A stretch of DNA of 64,000 nt from Daucus carota subsp. sativus (taxonomy: Eukaryota > Streptophyta > Magnoliopsida > Apiales > Apiaceae): assembly GCF_001625215.2 (NCBI RefSeq), contig NC_030386.2:17640545-17704544 (forward strand). Reading direction: 5' to 3'. The notes under the pieces were generated by a model that saw nothing but the letters and a program-made list of their open reading frames with translations, did no database searches and had not been told where the DNA came from. Shown piece after piece: positions 1,818 to 61,000 of this stretch (position 1 is its first letter; each line of letters begins with the position of its first letter). The translations under genes were made by a program, and so were the position numbers.

Positions 1818-2003
1818 ACTTAAATTTGCAAGAGAAATTTGTTTGAATAACCATGTAATCTGTAGAAGCAAGTACTCATAGTGCATGCCTTTGAGTTCTT
1901 GATACACGTAGTTTGACTTTTGACACGTAACTCAAAGTGCTTGACTGCATAGTGGTTATATTTTGCACATACTTCATAATATTTTACTCCTAATTATATA
2001 GTA

Positions 2004-6591: not shown

Positions 6592-6669
6592 CCTGAGAGA
6601 AATTTGCACAACTATATAAACTCTTCCCTTTTCACAAGAATAACACAAGCTTTAGCAGAGAGATTTATA

Positions 6670-6904
6670 CTCCCTCCGTTTCGAAATGCATGACGCTTTG
6701 ACTTTTTGCATGTTGTTTGAAGACCTTTGACCATGTACTTATATTTGTTATTTTTAAAAGTTTATTTTTTTAATTAAAAGTATTTAGTCAAAATTTTAAA
6801 GTATAATTGATTTTTTTTGAAAATGATGATTTTAAATGCTTAGTCAAAACAATTTGAAATGTGTGTAAAAAGTCAAAGCGTCATTCATTTTGAAACGGAG
6901 GGAG
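6670..6904. mobile_element. Stowaway MITE
   Basis: A 235-bp element bounded by TA on both sides (6668-6669, 6905-6906). The terminal inverted repeat starts CTCCCTCCGTTTCGAAATG and is mirrored at the right end. The subterminal GACGCTTTGACTTTTT block is also mirrored. The CTCCCTCCGT terminus and TA duplication define Stowaway MITEs. It sits just upstream of B3 copy C. Confidence 0.85.
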
Positions 6905-6977
6905 TACTACTCAGCTGACTGATTTAATTACGGCTCTACACATTCTCCAATGCTGTTTATGCAGTTAATCGGTACTA

Positions 6978-7082
6978 CTCCGTTCGTCCCCTTTTAAATG
7001 TCTCTTTTGGAGAAAATGCTTAATTTTTTCTTATAATATGTAATTTTTTTAAAAGAAGACATGTAAAAGGGGACGGAAGGAG
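6978..7082. mobile_element. Short Stowaway-like MITE
   Basis: A 105-bp element flanked by TA (6976-6977, 7083-7084). Its ends CTCCGTTCGTCCCCTTTTA and the mirrored right end form an inverted repeat. A half-related end with GACGGAGGCAG lies at about 7411-7432, suggesting nested or chimeric MITE copies out to about 7440. Confidence 0.65.
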
Positions 7083-7089
7083 TATTAAA

Positions 7090-8160
7090 TACACTCTCCA
7101 TCCCATATTACAAATTGATTGTGAACAAATTACACAAGAACTCTAACATTTCATAGTTTTCATTGTTATCCACATTAATTCTCTTTTAAAAAAATTACGC
7201 ATCTTAACAAAAAACTAGTTGAGTATTTGGTTTACATGTCTGCCCCTAATAAATGTATTGAAAGTAGTAGATTGATTTATGTGTATATGTGTGTGGTAGT
7301 CAAACATTGAAACTTGTATTTAAAGAGTATTTCTTGAAAAACATTCAAAAAATTGCTTTGAAAAGAGAAATGAGACAAGTATTTTGGGACAATTTTTTTC
7401 TCCAAAAGAGACATGTAGAAGGACGGAGGCAGTATCTTATATTATTTGTCTTCTGCACAGCTAGTACAATTTATACTTACATTTTTATTATTCGAATATT
7501 GACTAACACTGATTCATACAACACCAATCAATACTCATACTCATGTTTGATATTGTAAGGCCGTTAAACATGTGTATGTACTCTGTTCGTAATTAAAATT
7601 TTAATCCACAAAAAAATTTAATTAAAAATAGTGATTTTTACTATCCGGTCAACCCATCTAAAGATACGTGCCCAAGTCAAAAGTGACATATAAAGAAAAC
7701 GGTGGGAGTAGTACTTTGCAAGTGCTTTGTTTATCTCTTCCGAGTCACATAATTCAAATATAGGAAACCTCATATTTTTCTCATATTCTAGAGATGCAAG
7801 AAAATATGCTATTTTCTTCAAATCACTTAAAATCTAAACTACTTCAAACATGAAATGAGTTTAAAGAAATAATTTGCATTTCTGTTTAACTCTTCATTTA
7901 CCCGGGCCATATTGTTATGAACTACTTTGTTAGTTCAAAATTCCAATGAGAACAAATGGCCATAGTTCATAAACTATTTGCATTTCATCATATAAGAAAT
8001 ATTCAGTAAGACTCAGGTTAACTTTACTTTTGGTACAATTCCTAGTGAAATCTTTTTCAAAACATTACATATACTCTAAATTTTATATATAATATCACGA
8101 GTGGCAGATTTAGATTCCGAATGAACTTTAAAATTCATCTAGTTTTAAGGCGGGTAAGAC
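7090..8160. other. Intergenic stretch with MITE remnants
   Basis: A left MITE-like end (ACTCTCCATCCC) lies at about 7091 and a right end at about 7430. The rest to 8160 is AT-rich. The last 80 bases resemble the 3' flanks of the other B3 copies. I see no gene. Confidence 0.4.
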
Positions 8161-8218
8161 AAAATGGGTGCGGGAGTGTTTTTGTTCTCATACGTATACT
8201 CCGATCTGCATAAGGCGC

Positions 8219-10035
8219 TTAGCTGGTGCATTCAAAAATAGTAACTCTGATCACAGCAGCTTCTCTATCAATCAGCTCCAGGACACAAGCGTCGCCAATT
8301 TGCAGAGAGTTCTCCTCTACAAAAGCAGACCAGCCACTAACAATCCTGCTCTCATCACGATGAGGAAAACGATAAGTATGGAGGACAACATCCCACTCTT
8401 TGCCCCGGCACTGCAGTTTCACCTTGTTAGCACCCAAGCTCACATTCATTTGCTTAACAAAAGCTGCAGGAACATGCTGCACAATTCATCCAAATCTTTA
8501 AGTCCATAACACATCACCAAAATTTGGCTGATCAACACTTCTGAACTAATACATATCATTACTGGCCAAAATTTTTCACAAATTCAGAATTCAAGAATTT
8601 GACAGTACATATCATTATATGATCTTACCAGATATCTTGCGCGCAAGTAAGTGTGACGCATAACATACGGGCTGGAAGGATACTTTGAAAGTGATGAAAA
8701 TCTGTTTGCTGCTTTAATTGCCTTTCTAGATTGTGCTTCAAGTGCATGGCTAGAACGTTTCTTAGGTGCCTGGCAAGAGCGTGCTTCGAATGAGCTGAAA
8801 GGCCTGGCTTTAGTTTTACATATTTTGTTCTTCCCTACAATTTTGACAAAAGTGGCACATAATCACCACCAAGATTAAAAAAACTAATACACAAAGCACA
8901 TGGAAGAGCCCCTGCAAAACTAGGGCTGTCAATCGAGCCCTAGTCGTGCAGTACTAAATTAAACATATTCAAAACCTTATGGCGAACCATCAAAATACTT
9001 AACTGGTACTGCTGAAAATTGTAAGCTTGAGTGTATAATCTTCGGTATTGATAAGTTCAAAAGCGCATACATCACCAACTTTAAGAGCTTGTTCTGTTAC
9101 CAAGTAACTCCAGCATCTCGTCAACCTATATGTAGCGCAATCTTTCCTTACCCCAGCTGTCCATGTCTTGCCTGATACCTCAATCTTCACTTCCCTTGTG
9201 CTGTCCTTAAAATACTTTCTAGCAAAATCTGTTGTCAGAGGCTGCATGAACAGAGTACCAAAGCTGTTACAAATGTACTTAAACAGAGTACCATAAACTG
9301 TAAAGTGGTAATCCACTATTTCTCTTTCAATCAACATGGTTAGCTGAGGTGCAGGCCTTACCAAATATCCGCCAGGCCTCACGTAAGCCCACTGCATAAT
9401 CTTTAGGAATGCAGGGAACTTTGAGCTTGACATCAACTTTTCCGCTTTGTCAAGAGCTTCTTTTTCTCCAGGATTTGCTTCCTCCAAGTGGCCTGCATCA
9501 GATCAAAATGCAAATAATTTGCTTATACGCACACGATGAATTATGTAACACACATCCAAAATAAAGCTCTTACTGTGCTTCCTTGACTTGACATTGTGGG
9601 AAGTAACAGCTAGTTCCTTAAGACAGCAAGATTGATCAAACATGTCCACATAAAACTCGCAATCTTGAGCATACCGAAAAACCAACAAGTCACCAAAGCC
9701 TAAGGAGTAATGTCGTGCAAACTTCTTCCAGCCTTTCTTGAAATACAAAGAATCATTGATCTGTTTGGTTTTCACACGCCACGCATCTTGCGTACCGGTA
9801 GGCCTTAGCACGCATTTTCTAGCCAAAGTTCCGCGATGAAGGCTCACAAACTTGGACGGTATCATCTGCTCAAGTGAAACAAAGTTAACGAGACGTCAGA
9901 AATTGCAATGACACTAGTATTTTACTTAGTTAAAGATAATGGTAAGGTGAAAGTGAAGTGCACCAGCTTCTTGGAGAAATCTTTGACAAGAATCTTCGAG
10001 AACGCAGGCTTTCTTTCTGGTGGCCTTCTTCCCAT
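8219..10035 (-). CDS. REM-like B3 domain protein, copy A (three B3 domains)
   Basis: Predicted REM-type B3 protein of 398 residues from six exons: 10035-9964, 9865-9574, 9492-9362, 9241-9004, 8834-8629 and 8476-8219. The order is: leader MGRRPPERKPAFSK; B3-1 with GWKKFARHYSLGFGDLLVF; linker; B3-2 with TRCWSYLV and KVGDVCAFEL; basic Ser/Ala/Arg-rich linker; B3-3 with RGKEWDVVL, GWSAFVEENSL and LQIGDACVLELI. Phases at successive introns are 0, 1, 0, 1, 0, as in copy B. As in copy B, the B3-2 exon could end at an in-frame TAA (8999) or use the GTTAAG donor just before it, giving a possible two-domain short form. The upstream region (about 10,110-10,160) is shared with the other copies. B3 proteins bind DNA, but the target sites cannot be read from here. 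Confidence 0.75.
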
Positions 10036-10375
10036 GCTGAGAGAAGTTTTCACAAAAATAACTCAAGTTCTACAAGCAGAGAGATTTGATGTGCATTTAT
10101 ACTCATGATGAGGCCTGAGCTGACTTTTTTTGATGGCTCTGCATATTCTCAAATGCTGTTGTTGCTAAACAATTTAAGAGAGTTGCAGAGAAATTAATTA
10201 AGGTAGATGTTATTCGCTGTTAAAGTAAATACGCTATGAAATAAAAATAACTGTAATCTCTTTGAGTGATGTTATTCGCAGTTAAAGTAAGTTTTTACAA
10301 CTTGTACTGCTCATGAACGTTGAATGTTTGATGGTAAAATCTTCGGTATCAATAAGCTTAAAAACGCATATTTAG

Positions 10376-24097: not shown

Positions 24098-25450
24098 CTA
24101 CTTCTTACTGACCTTAACCTTTTTCTCAGAGTTCCTATCTGTTGTCTCCAGGCCACTCTTCTTCTTTGCCTTCTTTCCAGCCGACACTCCCACAGATTTA
24201 ACCGGTATGTAAGCTTTTTCAAGTTCCATATCATCTCCCTTTGTTTTCTTTGCTGCCTTCTCCACATTCTTATCAATAACTGGTCCATTTTTTACATCAC
24301 CCTTCTTTTTCTTGGTCTCAACTTCTTCACTCACCAGATCTTCCTTCTCTGATTCTTTACCCTCATTTACGATTTGAACATCAAATTTTCCTCCTTTGCC
24401 CGTTTTATTACTCTTTTTACCCAACTCATCTACGCCCTCTTCACCACTCACCCGTTCTTTCACTAAAGCCCTATTCTTTCTCTTCTTCCCAACAATTTCA
24501 CTACCATCATTGATCTTCTCACTCTCATTTTTATCCCCATCGACGTCACTTGCATCCATGTACTCAACCTCATGAATCCTCCCTTTCTTCTTTCCCGACT
24601 TCCCGTCTCTCTTTTTAACATCCACGCCACTCTCATCCTCCCCAACACTCTCACCAACCTCCTTACCCCCACCAATCTTCAGCCCTCCATCTGGCACACT
24701 CTGATACAACGGCAACGCCATAGAATCCAATAACCTCAAATGCAATGACCTAACACCCTCCCACCCATTCTCCACAAACCCAACGACCCCCTTAATCCCC
24801 TCCACGACATTCTCCACAACCTCCTCTTCCTCCATCGAAACTCTCCCAACTTTAACCACACTACAAGTCCCCGAACTCACCCTCAACAACCCCGAACAAC
24901 ACCCCCTCTCAATCTGCTCCTTCCAATTACTATGACCCAAATTAACAGCCAAAGGGACCTTCTTTTTCTTAAAAAACACTTTCCCTAGCATCTTAGGCAA
25001 GTAGGTAACAACCCCTTTATCAGCAAAAAACATATCATAAGACTCACACAACTTTCTTTTAGCATCAAGAGACTTATACTCACTCTTCAACTTAGTAAAT
25101 TTCAAAACTTTAGAAACATTAACCCCATCAGATTGTACCTTCTTTTTAGCAGCTTTTTTTGTGAGTTTTGACTTGGGTCTGTCATCAATGATGAGACAAA
25201 TCTGAGAGCCTTGAATCAGAGGATGGGGCAGTGGGATTTTATGTGGGTTTGTTCCAGTACTTTTTTGTGGGATGTTCTTGAGAGTTAGTACCAAGTAAAA
25301 GTACTGTTCTTGAGCTAAAAGCTGGGGTTTTTGTGAGCTTTTTTGGGCTTGTTTCCATTGTAGAAGAGATGTAACAGCCTCTGAGATTGTTTCAGGAGTG
25401 ACCCTTGTTGAGGTTTTGGGTTGCAAGAGAGTCTTGGTTGGTGTAGACAT
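24098..25450 (-). CDS. Ribosomal L1 domain-containing protein (RSL1D1/Utp30-like)
   Basis: An intact single-exon frame of 450 residues. The N-terminal half (about residues 20-250) has the ribosomal L1p fold pattern of the RSL1D1/Cic1/Utp30 family, with blocks such as QEQYFYLVLTLKNIPQKST, KSEYKSLDAKRKLCESYDMF and FFADKGVVTYLPKMLGKVFF. The C-terminal 180 residues are a highly charged Lys/Glu/Ser tail ending SEKKVKVSKK, typical of nucleolar assembly factors. The family binds pre-rRNA or pre-ribosomes in the nucleolus. The ATG at 25,450 is the first in frame and is followed at once by conserved-looking sequence. Telo-box words lie just upstream, in keeping with co-regulation of plant ribosome biogenesis genes. 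The exact orthologue is not assigned. Confidence 0.85.
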   Translation of the reverse strand: MSTPTKTLLQPKTSTRVTPETISEAVTSLLQWKQAQKSSQKPQLLAQEQYFYLVLTLKNIPQKSTGTNPHKIPLPHPLIQGSQICLIIDDRPKSKLTKKAAKKKVQSDGVNVSKVLKFTKLKSEYKSLDAKRKLCESYDMFFADKGVVTYLPKMLGKVFFKKKKVPLAVNLGHSNWKEQIERGCCSGLLRVSSGTCSVVKVGRVSMEEEEVVENVVEGIKGVVGFVENGWEGVRSLHLRLLDSMALPLYQSVPDGGLKIGGGKEVGESVGEDESGVDVKKRDGKSGKKKGRIHEVEYMDASDVDGDKNESEKINDGSEIVGKKRKNRALVKERVSGEEGVDELGKKSNKTGKGGKFDVQIVNEGKESEKEDLVSEEVETKKKKGDVKNGPVIDKNVEKAAKKTKGDDMELEKAYIPVKSVGVSAGKKAKKKSGLETTDRNSEKKVKVSKK

Positions 25451-25460
25451 AGTCGGCTTT

Positions 25461-25486
25461 GAGGGTTTTACAGATCATAGGGTTTT
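25461..25486 (-). promoter_or_regulatory. Telo-box-like elements upstream of the L1-domain gene
   Basis: Read on the minus strand, AAAACCCTA ends at 25,479 and a second AAAACCCTC ends at 25,461, both within 40 bases of the start codon. AAACCCTA is the telo-box core common in promoters or leaders of plant ribosomal and translation genes. Confidence 0.55.
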
Positions 25487-30665: not shown

Positions 30666-33600
30666 ATGAAGGGGTTGGAAGCTTCAAGCTCCGGCGTCCG
30701 GCCGCCGGCGAAAAAGAGAATCTTGGAATCTCCGGCGAGTGCAGAAGCCTTAACTCATGATATCCTTTTAATCATCTTCTCTTTTCTTGACTTTCTTGAT
30801 CTTCTTCACTGCTCTGCTGTCTGCAAATCTTGGTAATAATTTCTCCTTTTCAACAAGGTTTTATATTTGGGTGTTTATTTTTATTGGTTTTCTTTGTTGG
30901 TATTTATAAACATCCTGCCTTTGATTGTGTGTGTGTGTGTTTGTAGGAACTGGGTGATTAGTACATCAAAATTGTATCAAAGTTTGTACTACAAGAAGAA
31001 GTGTCAATCTAGAGGGGTTTTAGAGGAATCTGGAAACCTGGAGAAATTGTCGAAAATGTTTTTAAAGGAGCTTGCTTTGGATAGTCACAGAGCATCTTTG
31101 GAGGAAGGGTCTGTTGATGTATATCAGTGGAAAGGTCATTCGACTAGGTAATCTTTTTATTTATGCGCACACGAACACGCATTGGTACTGGCTTGTATAG
31201 ATAGTAGTAAGTTGGTGTTGAATGTTTATGACTCATTTAGTGGCTTAGAGGAGAGATATCTAGTTGGATCGGAACGTTCCTTCCCCTAATTATTCTGAAT
31301 TATGCACATCTTCGTTTGTTGATCTTGTAGCCCTAGCCTTTAGTGGCATTGTGGTTCTTAGTGGGATGGATAAGGTGGTTGACTCCTGCGAGTGAGATGG
31401 AGTCTTAAATTTTTAATATTTATTTAGTGACTTTTACTAACACTTTGCCATTTTATGATTGCACAAGTAAAAGAATGATATAACTTAAATTCTTAAAGAG
31501 ACAATAACTTTAATTTTTAAAAGAATGATATAACTTCAATTATAAAGATTATGAATATAAGTTGTTGCAATGTGGATATTAAATAGTATGAGTTTATTCA
31601 TGCTGTTATTGCTCATTTTAAGTTTACAACTTCTGTTGATTATACGGTTCCTAGAAACTTTCTCACAAGGCACATGACTTGAAATTTGGTTTTTATTTTA
31701 ACTTCTTTAATCTGGAATGGAACTCAATAAGCAAGAACAAAGAAAATTTGAAATAACATTTTTCTGGAAGTTGGAGCATTGGGGAAAACTGGACTGTGTT
31801 TTGTACTTATGATTCTGGAATTCGGTTCATCTGTGTTCTTAGCTAGTCTTATTTTTGCAGTCAATCCGTATGCCTAGAGATAAAATATCCGGTAGTATCT
31901 CTTGAGATGTTCGCTACATTCTTGGAAGAATATATGTGATGCTTTGTTAAATAGAGCGTCAAACATTCTAACATATCATTATGTTTACGTTCTTGTGTTC
32001 TTGATCACAAAGTATGTGCTTATATGGCTTGGTCTTTGTATGTTCTCTTCAACAGTTTTAACGGAATTGTATCTATCTGTGGATAGTTCTAATATCCATG
32101 CTCTCATTTAGGGTAAATCAGTGTCGGATGAAGATGGGATTGGTCCTAACTGGTGGAGATGATAAGGTAAGGTTGCTTTAAGTAACATTGTACTCCCTCC
32201 TTCCCACAAAAATAGTTGACATAAGTTCCACACACATGCTCATCAAAACTTCTTTTTTTTTTTTTACCTTATATATTGGACTGCATATACTTAAATTTAT
32301 TGCCTCATCAAGTGAAAGCATGAAAGCATGTGCACTTACGTTTGTGTCCAATTATATATCCCTTGCTTCTGATGTATGATATGTTGCTTCTTTCTATTGA
32401 CAATTGGAGATCCAATTATGTTAGGTGATGCGTTTATGGTCGGTAAATAGTTACAAATGTTTGGAGGAATACTCTGTTCCAGATAGAGCCCGTGTAATTG
32501 ATTTTGACTTTGATGAAAGCAAGGTAAATGCATACTTTCTCTGTATTATTTTTAAAGACGTTTTATTTGTTATTTCCATCAACTTAACCCCGATTTAGGT
32601 TTATATATTGCCCTCATCCTTTGCTTGAGCATGATTAGGCCTGGTGGTTGTCTGTGTATGTGTTTCGTTTTCCCCCGAAATTACTTGTGGGATCACATTT
32701 AATTCTGAAATCATCAAGCTAATTGATTATGTTCATCACTTTCTATTGGACAGTTGTCCCATTAGTAAGATCTTGATATTAGAATATCACTTAGTGGTTA
32801 CTTAACTACTCTTGTAAAAAAATACTGTAACTTAAACTGTGTCCTCTTTACAGATTGTCAGTTTGGTAGGGACTAGTGTGGGCATATGGAGGCGGCATGG
32901 GAAAAAAAGTATATTCTTATCTCGTAAAGGAGAGATTCCTAAAGCTTCTTGTATGTGGTATGTTATGATCTCACGATAAAAACTACCTGATGCAATATTG
33001 CTGATATTATCATAATCAATATGCCAGTATCCAAAGATTTTGCTACAATCATGAGTATTTTTAATAAATAAAAATACTGTTAGCACCACCATTTATTAAG
33101 TAAAGACTTCAACATTTGCTTCTTTACTTTGATATTGCAATTTAATAAGTTCCATCTGTCTCCCTTTGGGCATACTGTTCTACATACGCCATTACTTTCT
33201 GAAATTAATAAATATATATAGGGCTTATAAAAGATTTTTGCTAGCCTATGTTTATTTCTGTGTATGGAACTTATCAATAATCTGATGTAATCTATCTGTA
33301 GAAAGCTGAAACTTTCTTAATTATACAAAAGTTACCAAAATAGCATGTTTTTCCTTAGAATTATAATTTCTCCTACCTACCAAATTCCTGTAGCCAGCAA
33401 TTTGCTTTTGCATCGAACAAATCTTTAATTTTACTTTGGTTGCAGTTATGTTGATCCGGAGGCTGTGGTAGGATGTGAAGACGGGAGAGCACGGTTTTTG
33501 GATATGTACAGTAGAAAATGGTCTAAAATTGTCAAGTATGTGAATACTAAAAGTTTTTTTATATTTAAACTTGCATTTTAATATCCTTTCCTTGAACATA

Positions 33601-36600
33601 ATCTTTTGAGTTTTGATAGTAATGGAAAAGAAAAAGAATGGACAGAGAAATTTACATCTCTGATGATTTCTTCTATTTGCGAGTTTCTTAAAAGATGAGC
33701 TGTAAATCTGTCCCAAAAAAAAAAAGATGAGCTGTAAAGAAAGATAAGTAGACTCACCCCACTTCTATAGTTTCCATGTTAACTGATATGCACAAGCATA
33801 CATCCATGTCAGCTTCTCTGCGATACCCATGTCCTTTTCAATGATGTAGATATTCCACCAGTTTGGCCGTATTATTGTTTTTGGCACAGTGCAACCTTTT
33901 TTTTCCCCAGTACTATATTTTATTTAATAATGTATAAAGCATGTTAAAAAATCAATTGAAGTTGTAGATATTAGAGTCTTTTCCCAAAAAAAGTAAGCTA
34001 TGTTTTCTTTGTTTTCAGGATACAGGATGGGCCTGTCACTTGCATTTCGTTAAGTGATAGTCAAATGATTGTCGGGGGTTCCTCCACCGGAAGTATCACT
34101 GTATCGGATCTTTCATCGGCTCAGCGAGTAGCTACACTGAAGTCATATGGTTCTGCAGGTTATGTACTTGCATCGGATCTTTCATCAGCTCAGCGAGTAG
34201 CTACACTGAAGTCATATGATTCTGCAGGTTATGTACTTGCATCAGATCTTTCATCAGCTGAGCGAGTAGCTACACTGAAGTCATATGATATGACTTCAGT
34301 GTAGCATATGACTTCAGTGTAGCATATGACTTCGGTGTAGCTACTCGCTGAGCCCATATGGTTCTGCAGGTTATGTACTTGCATCATTACATTATTCTCA
34401 CTATAAGTTTGATGTCATTAGTATATCTCTTTATCAGATGGAAATTACCATCTCTCTCTTGCGTTCTCAAGGTAGATATGCTAAGCCCATTGGGTCTGTA
34501 GGTTTTGTCTTATCACGTTTTTACCAAAAAATCTTGGCTGTCCCTGAACATTGGGTTCCCAGCTGTTCACGACTCCGGACTCTGATCAGTATTTTTAATT
34601 GAATATCTGTAATTTTTGTGTTCTCACTTTCCTATGATGATATCTTGGTTGTCTATAAAAGAAGGGGTTCCCAGATGTCCATGATTATGGACTCTGATTA
34701 ATATTTTTAATGAAATTCTTCAAATCTATACTATACTGCATAAGCCAACATGGGTATAAATTGTCGTCGTACAAAATTTTGGTTTGGTCATGTTTGTTTG
34801 GTGATTCACTTTATAAATAAAAGTTTGCTACACGTAGAGTTCTCATAGTTTTACATCTCTAAACAGTTTGATATACTACAAGATAAAAACTCCATCATTA
34901 TTTTTTTAAATATAATTTATAATTAGTTAAAACATAAAAAAAGTAAATTTACCATCATCAATATATATTAAATTTAAATTATATATAATAAATTTAAAAA
35001 TATATAGCCGCCCGTGCTTTGCACGGGTTTAAGGCTAGTGTATAATAACAAAAAGAGGAAATATTAATTTAAAAGAGGTTTTTATAAATTGGCCAAGCTA
35101 AAAGAGCATCTAGAGGCCATCACTCTTACAGGGTAATTAGGCTTCTAGTAGGGCTTTCTCGTAGCTTCGACAAATTTATCCTCAGTAAGCACCTGTATTT
35201 GACCCGCAAGGCATGGCCTAGTAGATACCCCTGACATCATAGTAATAAGCAGTCAAGGATTAAAGCTTCGGTGAATGCATGAGTATTAAAGTTTTGTAAT
35301 TGACCATAACAAAAAGGGAAAAAAGGTAATAATCTAGCAACAAACCAATACTGTAACCCCAAATTGCTGATGCAAAAGTCAGGATCACAAGCTCATAATT
35401 AGAAATCCTATGATTTAATTCTTAAACTTGGAGAACCAATACTCGAATCCTTGAATCCTTAACATTGCTAATGTAAAAATTAGGATCACAAGCTCATAAA
35501 TAGAAGTTCTGCAGTTTAATCCTTAAACACAAAAAAGCTCATTAATATCTACTATAAGAAGAAAACTAAACCAGTGCTTTATCAATCTATCTCTTGGTTG
35601 GAATTGGGCTTCCAGAGCTTCTTTGTTTTGGTCCAGCCGATATTTTTTAGATCACGTTGAGGTCTGTCTTGCTAAAGGGCACTGTCTTCTTTCCTTAGTT
35701 ATTTATCATTACTTCTATTTTCTTGCTGTGTATATGCCTGATTAGTGGCAGGCACTTGGCATAAACACATAATTCTCACATTTATATTCTATCATATCAT
35801 TTTCTGGGGGAAGATTTCTCTCTATTTTTGACTGTGCCTTGAGATTCCTGATATTGAAAGCAGTCTTTTAGTAGTGGCAGTTTTTGTCTTTTGTTCTATC
35901 TGATTAAAAATTATGGACAGGCATTAGCACCTTGTGTGTCAACCCTAGTTCTCCGTTGATATTTTCTGGATCAACAGCAGGCCAAGCATTTTGTTGGGAC
36001 CTCAGGTATGTTAACTGACTATTATATGGAAATAAATTTCAATAACATCATTCTCTTTGGGTGAAGCTTTCGATGTGGCTAGCTTTATTGTCTGGAAAAC
36101 TGTTACTTGTTTTTATTTTCCTCAATCTAGATAAAATACACACACACACATATTGCAAAGAAAACGTACAGGTAGGGAAAAGCAAGTTGGTCCGCAGAAA
36201 AAGAAATATCTTATCCAGTAATAAACAGAAAGATGACCTGAAGTCCTAAAATGGACCAAATAATATACTGATTGTAATAAATTAACTGAATAGAAAAATA
36301 CTTGGGCCTCTTCAAGAGTTTGTGGTGTTTCAATGGAAAATTTGATTATATTCTATTATTCTGTATGTAACAAGTCATCAATGTTTGTAACTAACTGTCT
36401 GGTTGTGTTTTTTGGCAGGACAATGAGATGTTTGTGGCGGACAAGGGCGAGTCCGAATGTAATATACTCTATGCATCACCTGCGAGATCACACATCAACA
36501 TTAGTCATGGGTGGAATAGATGGTGTATTGCGCATAGTAGATGAAATCAGTGGCAAGGTCCTTTCAGGCTGTATCCTCGATCAGAATACTAGTGGATCGG

Positions 36601-36782
36601 TAAGTACTGAAGCATCAAATAAGCTCTCCAGGAAAAAAGGAAGAAGAATCGCAGAAGATACCAAGCTAGATCTTATGCCCAAGACTTCAAGACCTTCTAT
36701 CAACTGTTTAGCTGTTGGATTCCAGAAGGTTGTTACTACACATGATGACAACTACATTAGAGTATGGAAGTTCAAGATTTAA
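30666..36782 (+). CDS. F-box/WD40 repeat protein (At3g52030-like)
   Basis: A likely substrate-recognition subunit of an SCF ubiquitin ligase: the N-terminal F-box would bind a SKP1/ASK protein and the WD40 part would bind the target. Nine exons (30666-30832, 30947-31147, 32112-32166, 32425-32523, 32854-32957, 33446-33535, 34019-34158, 35921-36005, 36419-36782) give 434 residues with consistent phases. The F-box is LTHDILLIIFSFLDFLDLLH plus CSAVCKSWNWVIS. WD blades include LVLTGGDDKVMRLWSV, IVSLVGTSVGIWRR, GGSSTGSITVSDLSS, FSGSTAGQAFCWDLRT and VTTHDDNYIRVWKF at the very end. A GSVSTEASNKLSRKKGRRI insert interrupts the last blades. Exon 7 ends in a tandemly repeated region with alternative donors. 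The upstream TTG at 30,648 was rejected as start in favour of ATG at 30,666. Similarity to At3g52030 is from memory of that protein's layout. Confidence 0.85.
34103..34385 (+). repeat. 69-bp tandem triplication plus inverted 18-bp repeats at an exon-intron junction
   Basis: A 69-bp unit starting ATCGGATCTTTCATC repeats at 34,103, 34,172 and 34,241. It covers the end of F-box exon 7, the splice donor (GCAG|GTTATG) and the first intron bases. After the third partial unit come three inverted 18-bp copies of ATATGACTTCAGTGTAGC, then an original-like donor at 34,369/34,370. A perfect 17-bp stem with a TGA loop spans 34,269-34,305. Donors at 34,158 and 34,227 both keep the frame; reading on past 34,227 meets TAG at about 34,302. 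Confidence 0.9.
34725..35038 (+). mobile_element. Non-autonomous Helitron 3 in F-box intron 7
   Basis: A 314-bp element with 5' end TCTATACTATACTGCATAAG after an A and 3' end CCCGTGCTTTGCACGGG, then TTTAAGG and CTAG before T. The hairpin equals that of Helitrons 1 and 2, but the 5' end is a different subtype. It is non-coding and lies in the 1.76-kb intron 34,159-35,920 in the sense orientation. Confidence 0.8.
35364..35528 (+). repeat. Imperfect 64-bp direct repeat in F-box intron 7
   Basis: Segments 35,364-35,427 and 35,465-35,528 share AGGATCACAAGCTCATAA and the flanking words TTGCT and CTTAAAC. They are about 80 percent alike by eye. The origin is unknown. Confidence 0.65.
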
Positions 36783-37714
36783 CTAGCTCTGTTCAAGATT
36801 TAACTAGCTCTTTTGTATATAGACTTTTATATTTAGAATTCTCTGTTTTCATTTTTCAAATAGCAAACTAGTTTTTTTTACTTGGAATTTTTTATCTTCC
36901 CTTCAGGGTCGGTGTGATGCTCGCCGGAATTTTTTATTTTTTAATGATAGAGAAATATTTCAAATGAGAATTTGATGCCTGAGTGCAGCAAAATATTTTC
37001 CGCAAGTGATTTGACTATATATGCAATTTTGTCTAACGAAAAGACTAGTTTATGATGTCTTGACTTAGGTAAAAGCAGATTTTTTTCTCGAAAAGTATGA
37101 GAATTTCGACTTTATGTCAAGTGCAGCAAAATATGAGGATTTCAAGTTTATGGCAAGTGCAGCAAAATAATTTCCGCAAGCGATTTGACTATATATATGC
37201 AATTATGTCTCACGAGTAGACCCAGGGCTGTAAAAAGCGGGAATCGGACTAAATCGGTGTAGTCACGGAACATGAAACGGAACATGAAACGGAACATGAA
37301 TTAATCGGTGATTAATTGAATTGATCGGGGATTAATCAGTGATTAATCGGAAATTTAATCAGTTCGGCGAGCTACGGAACAGGGATTAATCGGTGACTAA
37401 TCGTGATTAATCACCGACTTTTAGAACAGAAAATAGACCAGTGATATATCTTCTTAACTTGGTATTGTTTTTGAGCTTTTCAATTTTGCTCAAAGTAATT
37501 ATAAATTTCACTATCAAATCTCATAAAAAATAAATTTTCATATGATAACTCAAAAATCAAAATATATAAATATCAAAAAATATATATATAAAACAGCAAA
37601 CTGATTTCTACACCAGCAATTTTTTTAAAGTACTCCAAAACAGACTCTTAGCAGGTAGAGCTGGCGGCCTAAGATTAGTCAATAAAACAGCATCTAACTC
37701 AAGCTTGTAAAAAC
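36783..37714. other. Intergenic region after the F-box gene
   Basis: It contains a 63-bp direct repeat (36,983-37,045 and 37,157-37,221, both with GTGCAGCAAAATA then CCGCAAG). A block of GATTAATCGG-rich interspersed repeat lies at about 37,230-37,430. The last 60 bases are the duplicated flank shared with the intact NAA10 copy. Confidence 0.5.
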
Positions 37715-38163
37715 ATGGTGTGCATACGATGAGCCACCATCAACGACCTCTTAGCCATGCAAGCATGCAATCTATTCTGTTTGCCGGGGAATTACCAGCT
37801 TCAAATCTACTTGTACCACATCATTTCTTGGCGGCAGCTCCTCTATGTTGCAGAAGACTACAACGGCAAGATAGTGGGATATGTCTCAGCCGAAATGGAA
37901 GAAGAAGCAACATCCGAGTGTCACGGTCATATCACTTCTTTAGCTTTTCTCAGAAGTCATCGAAAACTTCGTCTTCCTACTAAGCTGATGATGGCTGCTC
38001 ATAGCGCGATGGAACATGTGTTTGGCACGGAGTATGTTTCGTTGCATGTCCTGGAGAGCAATCAGCCTGCGTTTAATCTGTACACGGAGTTTATGATTCG
38101 GAGGGCAAGTATTATGCGGATGGGGAGGATGCTTATGTTATGAGGAAGATTTTCAAGGAGTAG
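37715..38163 (+). pseudogene. NAA10-like acetyltransferase pseudogene
   Basis: A single-exon copy closely similar to the gene at 41,455. The sixth codon is TGA (37,730-37,732) where the intact copy has AGA. The catalytic-signature LPENY is changed to LPGNY. The cofactor loop RKLGLATK is RKLRLPTK. A deletion of about 16 bases after the TYTE-equivalent (about 38,090) shifts the frame and removes GYK. The original end (AAG GAG TAG at 38,163) is still visible. Homology continues about 60 bases upstream of the ATG, so the locus was duplicated as DNA rather than copied from mRNA at this step. Confidence 0.88.
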
Positions 38164-38578: not shown

Positions 38579-40666
38579 TCACCATAGGTCCTTGCAAGAG
38601 CAGTGTCCTCCAACAAAATGATGAAATCGATTGGAATCCCTCAAAATGATTGGTCGTTCAATAATGTTAGACACAAACTTCATAAAGGCATGGCAGTCGC
38701 TGCAAACACGTATATTCTTCAATATCCTTATGGGTAGTTTTCCTTGGGGATTTTTAATCAATCCAAATGCAAGAGCTAATTTCTCACTGTGGTAGCATAT
38801 TGCTTCGAATTTCTCATCTTCGCCGACATTGTGCAGAACCAAGCTTTTATCAGGAATAAAGCCAGATTCTTGTAGCTTGCGTACCAGTTCGTTCAACTGT
38901 AGATAAATGGCTTTTGATTCAGGATGACTTCGATCTTCTGATACAAACTTATAAAACTTACCACCACTCTCAATCCAACTGTAGGCTGCAAACTTTTTAA
39001 CTTTCTTGTTTTTCATTAGCGATCTAATCGCTGCAACATCCTTCCATCTTCCATCAGTGGCATACATGTTGGAGAGCATTACATATGGTTCAGCATTAAA
39101 TGGGTCTAATTCAATGAGATGTTTTGCTGCTATCTCCCCATTTTTAATATCACCACACATCTTACAAACAGATAAAAGGGTAGACCAAATGAGGCTGTTT
39201 GGGGTATGTTCCATGTCTTCAATTAGAGCAACGGCTTTGTCAATACGACCTGATCGACCAAGGAGATTGATTATGCATGCATAGTGATCCAAAGTTGGTG
39301 TCATTCCATGCAATCCTCTGATGGAATTGAAGTACCTCTGGCCTTCCTCTGTTAACCCTGCATGCATACATGCAGACAGAACACCAACAAAAGTAACATA
39401 ATCTGGCTTCAGATTCTGGTGCATCATTTCTTCATAGAGGTCTAGGGCTGTTATATCCATTCCATTGTGCGCATACCCTATTATCATGGAATTCCAAGAG
39501 ATAACATTTTTACACGGCATTGCTGTAAAAATAGTCCAAGCATCTGTAGTCTCTCCACATTTAGAATACATATCAACGAGAGTGCTGGAGACTAGCAAAT
39601 CTTTATCAACCCCCATATGAACAGCTTTTCCATGAACTGCCTGACCATGATACAAAGAGGCCAGTCTAGCACAACAGCTTACAATAATAGAGATAGTAAA
39701 CTTATCAGCTTTTATATTCTCTGATAGCATCTGACCAAACAATATTAGAGCATCTTCTTCCATATTATTTTGCACATAACCAGCAATCATTGTTGTCCAG
39801 GAGACCTTGTCCTTCTCCTTAATCTCCGCAAAAAGTTTCTCTGCTTCATCCATATTTCCAATTCGCAAGAAAGCTCCTAGAATATTTGAAATCGTAACCT
39901 GATCAGGCCTTAAACCAGACACCTTCATATCCCGAAATAAACCAATACATTCATCAGGTTTTCCATGTTTCATATAACCCGAAATCATCAAATTCCAAGA
40001 AACTACATTCTTATTCACCATTCGATTAAACAACCACCGAGCCTGATCAATATGACCACACTTAGCATACATATCAACCAAAGTATTCCACACAAACACA
40101 TTCCCTCCAAAACCATCAACCAAAATCCTCCCGTGAATTTCTTTCCCACGCCTCAAATCCATCACCATTGAACACACGTTCAACACACTCACAAGCGTAT
40201 AATCCGTAAACTCAAACCCTTCTTTCTGCATTCTAACAAAAACCTTCAAGGCCTCGTTGCAACAACCACTCGAAGCTAACCCCGAAATAACCGTATTATA
40301 AGAAACCGAATCACGACAAGGCATTCCATCAAAAAACGCTTTTAACTCGTCAACAGAACCCAACTTACAATACCCAGAAAGCATAGCATTGTAAGTGAAG
40401 ATGTCTCTATGGGACATTCTATCAAACAGGTTGCGTGCATCTGACAGATACCCAGATTTCGCATAAAACTGAAGAAGACGATTATGTACAAAAGTGGTCG
40501 TGGGTTGCTCCAAGTGAATGTCCATGTGAGATTGTAATCTCTTAGCTTGTTGAATGTCATTTTGTCGAACACAGTCAAGCACGAGACGAGTGTATGTTTC
40601 CGTGGTTGCTCGGCCGTGTTTGTATAGTGAGTCGATGGCTTCGCGCAACGTGTTCCTAGCATTCAT
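38579..40666 (-). CDS. DYW-class pentatricopeptide repeat protein
   Basis: An intact single-exon frame of 695 residues. Successive PPR motifs of the P/L/S types run from about residue 55 (VHNRLLQFYAKSGYLSDARN) to about 520, with typical repeats such as VFVWNTLVDMYAKCG and VSWNLMISGYMKHGKPDE. E/E+ motifs follow, then a DYW cytidine-deaminase domain. The predicted zinc and catalytic residues are H626 and E628 (HSE) with C655 and C658 (CSDC). HCSC near the end also matches. The last three residues are DLW rather than the canonical DYW. The family performs C-to-U editing of organelle transcripts; the PPR array sets the RNA site. The N terminus could be a weak organelle targeting signal. The target transcript cannot be deduced by eye here. 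Confidence 0.93.
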   Translation of the reverse strand: MNARNTLREAIDSLYKHGRATTETYTRLVLDCVRQNDIQQAKRLQSHMDIHLEQPTTTFVHNRLLQFYAKSGYLSDARNLFDRMSHRDIFTYNAMLSGYCKLGSVDELKAFFDGMPCRDSVSYNTVISGLASSGCCNEALKVFVRMQKEGFEFTDYTLVSVLNVCSMVMDLRRGKEIHGRILVDGFGGNVFVWNTLVDMYAKCGHIDQARWLFNRMVNKNVVSWNLMISGYMKHGKPDECIGLFRDMKVSGLRPDQVTISNILGAFLRIGNMDEAEKLFAEIKEKDKVSWTTMIAGYVQNNMEEDALILFGQMLSENIKADKFTISIIVSCCARLASLYHGQAVHGKAVHMGVDKDLLVSSTLVDMYSKCGETTDAWTIFTAMPCKNVISWNSMIIGYAHNGMDITALDLYEEMMHQNLKPDYVTFVGVLSACMHAGLTEEGQRYFNSIRGLHGMTPTLDHYACIINLLGRSGRIDKAVALIEDMEHTPNSLIWSTLLSVCKMCGDIKNGEIAAKHLIELDPFNAEPYVMLSNMYATDGRWKDVAAIRSLMKNKKVKKFAAYSWIESGGKFYKFVSEDRSHPESKAIYLQLNELVRKLQESGFIPDKSLVLHNVGEDEKFEAICYHSEKLALAFGLIKNPQGKLPIRILKNIRVCSDCHAFMKFVSNIIERPIILRDSNRFHHFVGGHCSCKDLW

Positions 40667-41454
40667 CTAATATGATTTTGTCATCATATTTTGTGATTTG
40701 ACTATTACGGTAGAAATCTCATGTACCAACTAGTACCAAGAAATTTATCATTTTAAAAGAGTTATATATAAATGAGGTTTATATATTCATAATAAAAAAA
40801 ATTATATATTAACTTTTAATATATTAAAACTGTCATACACTTCATTTTTAAGTGATGTACCAATATTTTAACACTTTTTGGGGTAAAAATAACCAATATA
40901 ATCTGAGAACATTAACTAATTAGATGAAAGTTTTGTCATTAACATTAAATTAAATAATATATTTAATAAAGATGAGTTAATGATAATACATGATCCGAAA
41001 GTCATTGAACAACTGCACAAACAAGTGTTAAAAAATATTATTTACCGAGACTTTTTATCATAGCGAGAGGGCTTCTACCTAATGCAATTCTGTCTCGCGA
41101 GGAGATCATGAAGGGTTTGATGAGCTTAAAATAAATGTTTTTTTATTTAAAATGAAGAAGTGAAGTAAAACTTAAAAATAAGTAAAAATTTGTGATGATT
41201 AAAATATTTGAGATAGAAATAGAAGCATGAAACAAAAACAAAAACTAACTTTCTCAATTTTTTATAAATTTTTCTTAATTTATTATACATGAATAAATGT
41301 TTCTAACATATAAATGAGGAAGTCCGGGCCAAACAGCCGATGATGTCTTTGACTTGGTAGGTAGAGCTGGCGGGGCAAGACAAGTCAATAAAACAACGCC
41401 ATCTACCTCGACCTCGAGCTTGTAAAAACAAAACAGAACTCTCTTCCAAAAACC
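40667..41454. other. Intergenic region between PPR gene and NAA10 copy
   Basis: AT-rich; it should contain both divergent promoters. The final 98 bases (41,357-41,454) match the flank of the NAA10 pseudogene. No other feature is seen. Confidence 0.45.
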
Positions 41455-41919
41455 ATGGTGTGCATCCGAAGAGCCACCATCAATGACCTCTTAGCCATGC
41501 AAGCATGCAATCTATTCTGTTTGCCGGAGAATTACCAGCTCCAAATCTACTTGTACCACATCATTTCCTGGCCGCAGCTCCTCTATGTCGCAGAAGACTA
41601 CAACGGCAAGATTGTGGGATACGTCTTAGCCAAAATGGAAGAAGAGGCAACACCCGAGTGTCACGGCCATATCACTTCTTTAGCTGTTCTCAGAAGTCAC
41701 CGAAAACTTGGCCTTGCTACGAAGCTAATGATGGCTGCTCATAGCGCGATGGAACATGTGTTTGGCGCGGAGCATGTGTCGTTGCATGTCCGGGAGAGTA
41801 ATCGGGCTGCGTTTAATCTGTACACGGAGACGTTGGGGTACAAGGTTCATGATTTGGAGGGAAAGTATTATGCGGATGGGGAGGATGCTTATGTTATGAG
41901 GAAGATTTTCAAGGGGTAG
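41455..41919 (+). CDS. NAA10: N-alpha-acetyltransferase 10 (NAA10/ARD1-like), intronless
   Basis: A GNAT-fold catalytic subunit of the NatA complex, which acetylates the N termini of nascent proteins at the ribosome with NAA15. The 154-residue frame starts [20 protein letters not shown]. It has the LPENY substrate-site signature (residues 23-27), [10 protein letters not shown], and the acetyl-CoA loop R83-KLGLATK in the R-x-x-G-x-A form. [20 protein letters not shown] follows, and it ends [17 protein letters not shown]. Plant NAA10 proteins usually carry a further C-terminal tail of a few dozen residues; here the protein stops just after the GNAT fold. Lack of introns suggests a retrocopy, with the parent elsewhere. 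The pseudogene at 37,715 ends at the same codon, so the short C terminus predates their duplication. Confidence 0.88.
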
Positions 41920-55000: not shown

Positions 55001-58000
55001 AGAGTTAGAACTATCATAGACCATAGTTCGTTACTATTGTTAGTCGAACTATCCATCCTCCAAGAATGTTAACTTTTTTAATTGTTTAATAGGATACCTG
55101 TAGTAATTCTATAATTATCAGAACTATATTGGCATTTAGGTATTGCTTGTTTCTCTCGAACTAGATTTTTATCACCCCTTCTTTTAAGTTGATTGTTTGT
55201 CAACATTTGAGTGTCTATATTACATCGGATTGTTTGTTTTTAATCTGTATAAATATTGCACTGGATCACTGCCCAGTTGTATCATTCCATGTTCTAAAGT
55301 TTTCGTTCTGTCCATTACATTTTCTGAAAGTTACTTCTATTTTTTGTCTAGTTAAGTACATAAAAGGAATGATTTTTTTCTATATGCTGATTGAGTTGTC
55401 GTTTATTGCTTTAGTTACCAATAATTTTTTAAAGTGGTTGTTATGTTCTTTATCCTTTTTTTATTGATTTCTGCCAATAACTGCCGCAAAACATTGATAA
55501 TATTTAATTGCTCTGAGTTTTATATTAATAATTGTCTATAAAACATTGATCCTTTAAGCTCATGTGCTTTACATTAATGTTCATACTTTATATGCTTGAA
55601 TTGTGTTAGTGCTACTGTTTGGGTGTTGAAGATCTGGAATTACTGTCCGCAGAAGAACTTCATGCACCAAACTCATACCTGATTATATTAAATGGGCTTA
55701 TTCTTGGCAAGCATCGGCGACCAAAGGTATTTTGGTTTTCTTATAACTGATCCAAAACTCTTCTGTATTTTATAGCGGATCTTTATATTAGTATCATTCT
55801 TTTTGCATTAGTAATAAAGAGAATGTATATAAAAATGCATCATTATGTCTTTCTTTTATTGTCCAGCAATTTGCACAAGCAATGAGAAAGTTGCGAAGAG
55901 CTGGTAAAATTGGGGAGTTCATTAGCATTTTTGTGAATGAGAAGCAGGTAACTATCATTGTCTCAGAATGTAGTACAATTTTTGAATACATAGTATGATC
56001 CAGGTAATTCCTTTAAACACTTTCACATTTTAGCATGCATCCTAAAATGGTATTCTAGCGTCAAACCCACCTTGCCATAATATTGTCAATTATTTTGGTT
56101 GGTCCGAAGGTCGATTGTTGCCCCAAAGAAAGATAGGTCCAACCTAGAAATGGGACTGAAGTGAGGATGAGTGATAAACACATACTAGCTCACTACTCGT
56201 CCGATGCACAGATCTTCTTCAGTACTCGCTCCGTCCCTCTCATTTCTTTACAATATTCTTTCACTGCTTGGCATGCATTTTAAGTTGTATGTAAAGTATA
56301 GTTTCAATTTTTTTTTTTAATTTTTTTAATCTTTTTAAAAAATCTGAACATCAAACTTTTATTCAGAAGAAAAAGTTCAAAATAATTTAAAACTTTACTT
56401 TATAGGAGCATTGAAATGCGTGCAGAGACCTTTGTCCCCAACAGGGGGATAGAGCGAGTAATTATTAGAATATTTAATAATAATTTAATAATTATATAAT
56501 CATAGAATGATTTTACAGTTAATTTATATAATCATAGAATAATTGTATAATTCTAATTTACTTTAATACAGTGTTGCATGGTTTACTAGTCGTTTGGGTA
56601 TGTGGTACGAGATCGGGTACATAAAACGTTAGTTTTTATGAATCAGGTACGATGACCAGTGAATCTGATTCGCGGGTCGATATGAGGATCCCTTTTAAGT
56701 GATTTTCAATAAACAATATTTAGTCTAGATATTGTTTTTATGATTAAAATATTTTTTTGAGGTAATTGCATATCGCACCCCCTAAGTATCGTTCAAAAAC
56801 GATAGAGTACCGATACTTTAAGAAACTCAACTCGCACCCCTTATCTTTACTTCTCAAAACCGATATGCACCCCCTGCCGTTAACTTCCGTTAATTCAGTG
56901 TACTCCGTTAAGTCTGTATATATATAATTGCAATTCGGACCCCCTAACTTACGTTCAAAAACGATATTGTATCCATATTTTTGAAAACTCGAATCGCACC
57001 ACCTATTTTTACATCTCAGGAACGATACACAACCCCTCCGTTAAATTCCGCTACCTTCCGTTAAAATTCTCCCCGTCTCAATTTACATGGCCCTTTTGTT
57101 TTTTTGGGAGTTAAATTGACTAATTTTTTACCAACTATTTGAATATATGTATTTAAAATAGAAATTTACATATTAAAATAGACTAGATACCTCTATTAAA
57201 ACAGGCTAGAAAGTATATTTTTAATGTGTAACTTTCTATTTCCTAAAATAATAAATAAATATTTTTTAATAGTTGGTCAAAAATTAGTCAATTTGACAAG
57301 GGACATGTAAATTGAGACGGAGGAGTATTTTAACGGAAGGTAACGGAATTCAACGGAGGAGGTGCGTATCGTTGTAAAGATAGGTGGTGAGATTTGGGTT
57401 TCCAAAAGTACAGGTATAATATCGTTTTTGAACGTAAGTTAGGTATAATGTGCTTTTTTTATAAGCCTCTTGTCGTTTAATCAAAAAGTAAATCTAGCCT
57501 ATTTTAATAGAGGTAAATAGTAGGGGGGTCCGAATTGCAATTATCTCTATTATTTGTGAAATTCGGACCCTCTATTATTTGCGAAAACAAATAGACTAGA
57601 TTTACTTTTTGATGATATTTTTTTTTAAATTTTTGTTTAATTAAGTTATCCCCAAGTCAAAATGATTTTACATATTGAATTATTTTAAATTTTTAGTGAC
57701 ATGTGTATTAGGTATTTAATATACACTATTTTAAATATAAAAAATAAATATCATGTGATATTTATTATAAATATTACATAAATTTATCTATTGATTAAAA
57801 TATATAAATTTTAATTATTTTGTTTGGAAAAATTGATCAAAAAAATATCATCAAAAATTAAATCTAGTCTATTTTAATATGTAACTTTCTATTTTCTAAA
57901 ATAATAAATACATATTTTCAAATAGTTAGTAAAAAATTAGTCAATTTAACTCCTCAAAAAGCAAAAGGGACATGTGAATTGAGACGGGGAGAATTTTAAC

Positions 58001-61000
58001 GAAGGTAGCGGAATTTAACGGAGGGGGTGCGTATCGTTCCTGAGATGTAAAAATAGGTGGTGCGATTCGAGTTTTCAAAAATATGGATACCATATCGTTT
58101 TTGAACGTAAGTTAGGGGGTCCGAATTGCAATTATATATATACCGACTTAACGGAGTGCACTGAGTTAACGGAAGTTAACGGCAGGGGGTGCATCTCGGT
58201 TTTGAGAAGTAAAGATAAGGGGTGCGAGTTGAGTTTCTTAAAGTATCGGTACTCTATCGTTTTTGAACGATACTTAGGGGGTGCGATATGCAATTACCTC
58301 TATTTTTTTTAATCTAAAAATATAGAAGTTAATGAGAAAATGAAATTTAAGGTTATTGAGGACTTTCAATACATATTTATAAGGGGATTTATATTGTTTT
58401 TTAACCGAGGCATGTCTTGTGTATCTTCTTATCATCTTCCCAACACCTTCCTTTTCTTATTTCTTTTACTAAAGTACGTTTTCAAAAATAATTTTAATCA
58501 AGATAGTGTCAAGTTATTTTCCTTTCTTATTTCACCTAAGTTAAAGGTGGATAAGTCCGCGAACTGGAGCGTGATCCCTAGTGATCCGGGTCGAAGAGAA
58601 ATTGTATTCTGGAACGAGGGAACTGGTTCCCGGTTACATAGGCTGACCCATGAACCATGCAATACTGCTTTAATATATTAGAAAAAAGAATTAGTACTGC
58701 ACAACTGTAACTTAATCATATATCTGCGCACTAGGAATTTTTTGTTTTATGTTATGCACAATTAAAACAAAATAATGGAATATCATACTATGCCCTGTTT
58801 TTTATTGGTAATTAAGACCCAGGTGGTAAGGATAAATTTTTTATTTTTCGTCCAGTTGATTTATCTTTTCACTATCTTGATATTTTTAAATGCTAAAAGT
58901 TGTTAAAAGTTAAATTAATGATAATAACAAATAAAAATTTGGCAGCATTGCCTCTACATTGCTTCAGATGGTGGCCGGGTATGTCGACCTCTTGTAATTG
59001 CTGACAAGGGTGTATCAAGAATTAAGGAACATCACATGAAAGAGTTAAAGGTAAGTTGCTGTTTATGTCTATCTTTCCATTATATCCTTGTGTGTTATGT
59101 GATAGACATTTATTACTTTGTAGGACGGAATGCGCAATTTTGACAGTTTTCTACGGGAGGGGTTGATAGAGTATCTTGATGTTAATGAGGAGAACAATGC
59201 ATTGGTATGTTTAACTGTAGTGTATATCATATTTTTGTTTTGGGCACTGCCTAAAGTCATTTTTATTCTATATTCAATGCATATAGATTGCTCTCTATGA
59301 AGGAGAGGCTACAATAGATACAACGCACATTGAAATTGAACCTTTTACTATACTGGGTGTTTGCGCTGGATTAATTCCATTTCCTCATCACAATCAGTCA
59401 CCCCGAAACACATATCAGGTTCCAGTTCGTTCTTTATATTTTGGACATCCGCATTAATTTGGATTAAAGTGTTTATTGAAGTGATCTTTTTGTTGGCATT
59501 ATCCCCTCAGTGTGCAATGGGAAAGCAAGCAATGGGAAATATTGCTTATAACCAGGCAAGTTGTTATTTAAAATCCTTACATTGACTTTACTTTTTCCTA
59601 CTGAGTTGCATGGAGCCTCTCCCCACATATTCAACACATGTAGTTGACTTTTGTATTTTCATACACACATATATGTACACTTTTTTCCTTGTAATATCAT
59701 TTCAATTTTGATTTTTGCTCCATTGGAAAGTCATTTTCACTTGTTTATACCCGCTGTTTGTAGTAAATGAAAACCCCTTGCACAAACACACAATTGTGCA
59801 CGTGTTTTTGTAAGATCTACTGATGTGGAGATTTTATGCGAGAAAAAGCCATTGTGTATGGGGTGGTAGGAAACTAAATCAAGTAAGAATAAATAGATGC
59901 ACTCAAAGAGCAAATCTAATAGTCATATTATAAGAATTAAATGGACGGACTTCAGGAAGTAATTAAGTAATATGCTATCTTTAAGATTCTTTGTTTTGTC
60001 TCTTATATTCTTAGTATCATCTATAAGAGAGTATATATAAGCATCTAAATGAACACAATCAATAATTTCATATGAGAGTCTCCCAATGAGAGGAACATAA
60101 ATGAATCCCTACCATAACCGGAGTAAAAAAAACAAGTCGAAGATGCCCAATGGGGACTAATATTAATGTTAAACTTGAAGACAAGAAGTCGCCTGTGAAA
60201 GAAATATGAAGAACTCTATTTATCACGCTATCCTTGTGTCAACTGTCGGGGAAACACCTTTCTTACATGAGAGAAGTACTATTTATAAGGATGAACTCTG
60301 GTTCTCGATTACTATGATGTTGTATCTAGCTTTAAGTTCTGGCATTTATTTTGTTGGTTAGTTCTCTTTTTTGCCACTTTGGCTCAGTTAGAGTTCTCTG
60401 ATATATGGATTGACCTCAGTCTGGCGAGGGAAGAAATTAAATATGTCTTCTTAGTAACATCCTTATCTTCTTATACTTGCAATTCGCAAACACTTAAATG
60501 ATACCATTGTTTTCTAACAATACCAATTGATAAACAAATTTCATGAATAGACTAAGAAAATTATGTATGTGAACGGGGAAGTAGTATTAGCAATATAATG
60601 CTGAATTTATTGTATGTATAGAATTAGTCATAGCAGATCTCGCTATTGGCTAGCTGTGGTCAAATATCTGCAAAAAAGTGGATTGCGAAGGTTCAAAAAA
60701 TGCTGAACAACAGCCACAATTGAAGCTCTATGTAAATAGGATTAGTTAGACACCCAGGTATAGATTGTACTTGTAGTACAATATTGAAATAGGGTCTTTC
60801 CAGTGAATGAAGTCTTTCTAACTCAATAACTTTATCTGCATATTTTAAGATTTCAATAATTTTGATTGTTAAACAAGACACCTTAGGTGATATCTTCTCT
60901 TTTCTCACTTCTTTTTGGGTAGCTGATACATTGCTTGCCTGATGATAGTTTTTTGACTTTATCTTTGCCATTTGCTTTACTTTCTCTGTAAGAAGCTTAG

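Follow-up and report, generated by a model that had tools for sequence, protein, structure and literature searches.

The carrot gene at positions 30666–36782 (plus strand) of the window, the 64,000-nt stretch of Daucus carota subsp. sativus DNA that was analysed, carries three splice donors with identical cores at the end of its seventh exon, set within an array of direct and inverted copies of the exon 7/intron 7 boundary. How was this array formed, and which of its donors gives the gene its product? The initial annotation read the array as a source of alternative in-frame WD40 lengths.

The gene was rebuilt from splice sites and reading frame, and has nine exons (30666–30832, 30947–31147, 32112–32166, 32425–32523, 32854–32957, 33446–33535, 34019–34158, 35921–36005 and 36419–36782), with GT..AG at all introns. 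All nine exons are open, and the spliced frame is open over 434 codons. The translated sequence displays an F-box (Pfam PF12937, 39.4 bits, cut-off 24.3; PF00646, 31.3 bits, cut-off 20.5; residues 29–71 together), and C-terminal to it there are WD40 repeats (PF00400, 39.9 bits, cut-off 27, best stretch at residues 275–312). Residues 118–354 match Tako8, a solved WD40 protein that we take to be a designed propeller. FBXW7, FBXW11 and FBXW1A likewise have an F-box followed by a WD40 propeller, but their resemblance to the carrot protein (E = 6.4e-14 for FBXW7 and 1.9e-14 for FBXW11) is a general WD40 likeness; since Tako8 scores better, orthology to the FBXW proteins is not established. We take Arabidopsis At3g52030 to be the likely counterpart of the carrot gene. 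At3g52030 is among the F-box proteins listed as interacting with the SKP1-like protein ASK13 (PMC6054272).

The window, judged to be plant nuclear DNA by its genes and introns, occupies positions 17640545–17704544 of contig NC_030386.2. The carrot assembly comprises 441,086,747 bases in 11 contigs, and match counts from searches of it are lower bounds. A search with the protein sequence gave at least 12 matches: nine are the exons of this gene and three are weak matches elsewhere (26%–34% identity). With 59 of 59 candidate places scored, this search reported no second copy of the gene. A scan of viral contigs with the same protein showed one stretch matched by pattern and no confirmed relative. 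Two other repeats are present in the gene: an exact 21-bp unit occurs twice in tandem at 36770–36811 and holds the last codons and the stop codon, and intron 7 displays a 52-bp direct repeat at 34553–34716 (112-bp spacing, 81% identity).

Several other features are found in the window. Two copies of a GNAT acetyltransferase sequence (37733–38143 and 41392–41919; 89% DNA identity) flank a PPR-DYW gene (38579–40666, minus strand); the frame of the first copy departs from that of the second near the C-terminus and looks damaged. Positions 254–10055 hold a cluster of related segments (76%–85% identity), with B3-domain frames at 4014–4502, 8999–9502 and 9503–9895 (minus strand) and 24-bp tandem repeats near 1054–1112 and 3250–3327. 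An inverted pair of about 440 bp (56759–57188 and 57862–58300; 94% identity), with related pieces nearby, is possibly a foldback element. The fragment at 12401–12955 matches a DDE_Tnp_4 transposase, presumably of the PIF/Harbinger type, and a frame at 24098–25474 (minus strand) combines a ribosomal protein L1 domain with a tail at the C-terminus that is long and charged.

The array is built from one 69-bp unit that spans the exon/intron boundary, with 56 bp from the end of exon 7 and 13 bp from the start of intron 7. The first copy (34103–34171) is taken as the template of the added sequence. It is followed, with a period of 69, by a second full direct copy with two differences (34172–34240) and by a partial third direct copy (34241 to about 34287), all on the plus strand, the last of which runs into a palindrome. 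At 34287/34288 the sequence turns back on itself, and three pieces in inverted orientation follow: 17 bp at 34288–34304, matching positions 34148–34132 of the first copy; 18 bp at 34305–34322, matching 34149–34132; and 32 bp at 34323–34354, matching 34149–34118 with one mismatch (34334). Forward sequence resumes at 34355. This final piece (34355–34382) is the last 28 bp of the unit, is identical to the first copy, carries the third donor, and leads into the native intron. Repeat detection marks the inverted part as 18-bp tandem units at 34288–34305, 34306–34323 and 34324–34341. Thus the mixture of 69-bp direct and 18-bp inverted repeats described in the initial annotation is present, as are the 23-codon length of the unit and the three donors; the sequence CAG/GTTATG is found three times, with the GT at 34159, 34228 and 34370.

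The palindrome is a perfect hairpin at 34269–34305, which can be drawn as 17 bp with a TGA loop or equally as 18 bp around a single G. The stop codon that had been placed in it is a TAG at 34302–34304. The partial third copy and the inverted pieces together form a longer hairpin (34257–34353), whose arms at 34257–34290 and 34320–34353 are 91% complementary. The region 34250–34360 folds at −59.2 kcal/mol, compared with −28.27 (sd 3.29) for shuffled sequences (z = −9.4; 0 of 200 as stable), and the whole 442-nt region gives z = −12.96 (0 of 100 shuffles as stable). This stability is a result of the inverted copies. On a smaller scale, each donor lies within a short self-pairing stretch (TGCAGGT-TATGT-ACTTGCA, at 34154–34172), which is part of the unit and repeated along with it; for a 26-nt piece containing this stretch, the folding energy is −8.0 kcal/mol.

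A 19-mer of the unit, with three or fewer mismatches allowed, occurs six times in the window, in every case within the array, where 0.03 occurrences are expected and none of 100 shuffles reaches six. Exact direct repeats reach 31 bp, whereas none in 200 shuffles exceeds 14. The longest exact inverted repeat, 20 bp as against 18 or less in shuffles, by itself only just exceeds chance; it is the long imperfect inverted arms (31–35 nt, 91%–97% match), together with their repetition, that constitute strong evidence.

Relative to an assumed one-copy form, the array represents a net gain of 211 bp, all of which is templated by the 69-bp segment except for five single-base differences. The one-copy ancestor is an assumption made from the array alone. 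A parser that copies from either strand of this one-copy sequence, with the first copy as the original (switch cost 4, mismatch cost 1), resolves the region into seven segments with six switches and five mismatches, at a cost of 29; switch costs of 3 and 6 yield the same segments. None of 200 shuffled inserts is parsed for less than 115, and none of 199 other stretches of the window for less than 112. The three minus-strand segments total 67 bp with one mismatch and are reverse-complement copies of adjacent sequence. Overlaps at the six junctions are 3, 0, 0, 1, 1 and 0 bp. The junction before 34245 has no overlap in the best parse, but by eye one extra substitution moves it to 34241 with an ATC overlap, like that of the first junction.

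Tandem duplication with template switching is thus a well-supported explanation of the array, template switching having been proposed earlier from the look of the repeats, and the 399 control inserts, at 112 or more against 29, bear this out. That the array is a mutation, a copying accident at the exon 7/intron 7 boundary, can be held with near certainty. In the proposed course of events, DNA replication would first have slipped back by 69 bp and later have moved onto the nascent or opposite strand, where it stuttered at 18-bp intervals before returning; two or more separate steps are probable. Two other accounts are rejected. Tandem duplication of 69 bp, taken by itself, offers no source for the 67 bp in inverted orientation. 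A mobile-element insertion is not required, as the adjacent 69 bp accounts for the insert; a 438-bp stretch compared with the carrot assembly gave at least four matches, all within the array (one candidate place scored), and no other matching place was reported there. Both types of mutation are already known, and template switching has been reported to alter coding sequences in yeast (PMC8604942); the carrot array is a clean and well-preserved example.

The differences between the copies give some indication of the history. There are 2 differences in 69 sites between copies 1 and 2, 3 in 47 between copies 1 and 3, and 2 in 47 between copies 2 and 3, with both 47-site counts including an A at 34244 that may be a junction base (native flank in the best parse). 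At 34187/34256, A is found in copies 2 and 3 in place of the G of copy 1. On the simplest account, copy 3 derives from a copy 2 that already carried the change, and the array would have grown in at least two steps; the shared A makes a single event less likely. The same pattern would arise from a single event if copy 1 had changed later; against this, the third inverted piece offers just one base in support of G, its last, and that base lies at a junction. The closing forward piece has the sequence of copy 1 throughout and one difference from copy 2. Very roughly, two to three differences and a plant substitution rate of 7e-9 would place the array at 2–5 Myr, which is an order of magnitude at best. 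The description of the change as recent is loose wording, in view of the 2 of 69 sites at which copies 1 and 2 differ.

The three donors have identical bases from −8 to +16, and the products predicted from them differ greatly. Donor 1 (GT at 34159–34160) gives an exon 7 of 140 nt (34019–34158) and the predicted 434-aa protein. Donor 2 (34228–34229) adds 69 nt, encoding YVLASDLSSAQRVATLKSYDSAG, and the resulting 457-aa reading has no stop; the claim that the second donor adds 23 residues without a break in the frame is exact. Donor 3 (34370–34371) adds 211 nt, with both a stop and a frameshift. Use of donor 3, or retention of the intron, runs into the TAG, which is in frame and lies in the palindrome's 3′ arm, for a predicted product of 333 aa. 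Retention was correctly said to run into this stop, to which it should be added that donor 3 is also out of frame. In the donor 3 form the TAG is 65 nt upstream of the exon 7/8 junction, a position that would be a usual one for nonsense-mediated decay.

The 434-aa product aligns to Tako8 across the exon 7/8 junction with a one-residue gap. The extra 23 residues of the donor 2 form repeat the sequence immediately preceding them and, with strand positions taken from general WD40 anatomy, fall between the final strand of one blade and the initial strand of the following one. They would thus lengthen an inter-blade loop; the earlier placement inside a WD blade is not borne out, as the alignment to Tako8 puts them at a blade boundary. 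The four best Pfam propeller models score the 434- and 457-aa forms at 66.6/62.1, 65.6/59.3, 58.3/57.2 and 54.5/50.2 bits, all below their own cut-offs; the longer form loses 1.1–6.3 bits on these and 0.3 on the WD40 model. Three weaker models gain 0.4–2.0 bits with the addition (EIF3I 30.4/31.9, MABP1-WDR62 21.5/23.5 and the second TEP1 propeller 21.1/21.5). On the leading models, the predicted 434-aa product is the one that fits the WD40 pattern best.

The strength of the donor core cannot decide which donor is chosen, since all three cores are identical: the pairing energy with U1 snRNA is −5.6 kcal/mol for each, within the range of the other seven donors of the gene (−1.6 to −10.0). Nor does modelled folding clearly separate them (mean unpaired values for donors 1, 2 and 3 of 0.45, 0.59 and 0.40 in the 442-nt fold, and 0.45 each in 81-nt folds). 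The base composition downstream does differ. At positions +7 to +56, A+U amounts to 54% for donor 1 and 56% for donor 2, but to 74% for donor 3, and to 62%–80% for the seven other donors. The G+C content of the array is 43%, which is also that of all exons, compared with 33% for the rest of intron 7.

The best explanation combines the copying accident with a competition of the three identical donor cores in which the donor 1 protein is kept; taken jointly, these two parts are given an even chance. Enough of the 434-aa protein would be made through donor 1, either by joining to exon 8 directly or after AG/GT pieces have left as mini-introns. Use of donor 2 would yield a minor form with 23 additional residues, and transcripts from donor 3 would have a premature stop and probably be degraded. 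This splicing outcome, judged by itself as a prediction from sequence, is a matter on which the scales are level. The array would then be a tolerated and mildly costly scar, and not an evolved switch.

The alternative that survives best is that donor 3, at the edge of AU-rich sequence, is the main donor, and most transcripts then stop at codon 334. We consider this possible, though doubtful, and hold the same of its consequence, that the transcripts are degraded or yield a truncated propeller, making the allele a partial or full knock-down. A leading role of AU- or U-rich intron sequence in the recognition of plant introns and donors is described in a review of plant introns (PMC2682935) and in a study of donor choice in Arabidopsis (PMC9813592). 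Plant intron definition may accordingly favour donor 3, the destructive one: G+C falls from 0.47 (34320–34379) to 0.27 (34380–34439) right at this donor. The 65-nt distance from stop to junction fits a decay rule of more than 50 nt, given for mammals (PMC2423196). This AU context is the strongest evidence against both the best explanation and the two-length proposal, and because of it the outcome that the initial annotation named as refuting its reading, use of the last donor with its stop, stays live.

Other observations weigh against a dominant donor 3. G+C rises again to 0.53 further into the intron (34530–34589), the AGs upstream of donor 3 could take out the array in a second step, and donors 2 and 3 are separated by the −59 kcal/mol hairpin, which could affect splicing either way. 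With no second gene copy reported from the assembly, total loss of the product would be a null, which weakly favours continued use of donor 1 or 2. The nine open exons are a weak point in this argument: if the gene were unconstrained, 0.4–1.2 nonsense changes would be expected in 1–3 Myr at a general plant rate, and so few that open exons barely argue against loss of function.

The reading of the initial annotation itself, with donors 1 and 2 both substantially used and stable proteins of 434 and 457 aa that differ in a loop, is unlikely. The exact frame of donor 2, the open 457-aa reading and the small loss (1.1–6.3 bits) on the four best propeller models are in its favour, as is the location of the added residues, which repeat the last two strands of a blade and would sit in the loop between blades. 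However, donors 1 and 2 share their core and differ little in context, with no sign of regulation in the sequence. Copies 1 and 2 of the unit have only two differences, one of which changes a residue (G to D), and these are too few to test for selection. The alternative lengths thus stand as a formally correct donor 2 form, possible as a prediction.

The best explanation allows for removal of parts of the array as mini-introns. Each donor is a duplicated AG/GT, and GT..AG mini-introns of 69 nt (34159–34227), 142 nt (34228–34369) and 211 nt (34159–34369) are possible on the plus strand, as read from the sequence. Their removal and subsequent joining to exon 8 could restore the donor 1 reading. 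The 16 nt before the two array AGs contain 8 and 9 pyrimidines, compared with 6–13 for the eight acceptors of the gene and 6 for that of exon 8. A stronger form, a splicing ratchet in which each CAG/GT would act both as acceptor and as donor, so that any first choice ends as the donor 1 mRNA, is distinctly improbable. If it were true, the array would be a newborn set of mini-introns at a native donor, sheltered by decay of its stop-bearing by-products. A tandem-duplication route to new introns has been described (PMC3443670) and, as a variant, shown for a potato gene (PMC4974935). From work in Drosophila it has been argued that decay shelters weak new introns that contain stops (PMC2809761).

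It is very unlikely that the long hairpin is a newborn microRNA-like element, with a stem complementary to exon 7 of the gene itself. Its folding energy (z = −9.4) would suit such an element, template switching has been published as a source of perfect RNA stems, and proposed as one of microRNA stems (PMC8794818), and inverted duplication is an origin model for plant microRNAs (PMC3237417); but there is no Rfam match at gathering score in the 64,000 bases of the window, a search from which young microRNAs would be absent, and the exon in or beside which the hairpin is placed belongs to the very gene that it would target. An assembly or sequencing artefact can be put equally low: nested short repeats, direct and inverted, are a place where such errors could plausibly arise, but the copies bear different single-base changes (34187/34256, 34219, 34260 and 34334) and the rearrangement parses coherently.

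With a copying accident and competing donors as the preferred reading, the array is a compact record of an exon-end mutation that created several equal donors at once. Three outcomes are predicted at a single exon end: one silent, one in-frame and one destructive. Identical cores in differing surroundings constitute a natural experiment on plant donor choice, in which distance, AU-rich context or RNA structure could be decisive. The array may also represent raw material for new introns.

Comparable elements are known in other systems. In the potato RdRp gene, as described in PMC4974935, a short tandem duplication also crosses a plant intron-exon boundary and offers new splice sites. That duplication, however, is on the 3′ side of the intron, a cryptic site gave rise to its new donor, and RNA reads show the new intron, whereas the carrot array is on the 5′ donor side, has three donor copies together with inverted pieces, and is known from sequence alone. 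The competing tandem donors described in PMC2423196 resemble the array in that a single exon end has several donors, whose use leads to in-frame products or premature stops. What is described there centres on human and mouse sites a few nt apart, while the carrot donors are 69 and 142 nt apart and identical by duplication. The hairpins described by Monttinen and Loytynoja in 2022 (PMC8794818) are, like the carrot palindrome, reverse-complement copies of neighbouring sequence that form a perfect stem. In contrast to what is described for them, the carrot array has three tandem inverted pieces placed after direct repeats, and its direction of change is assumed from the array.
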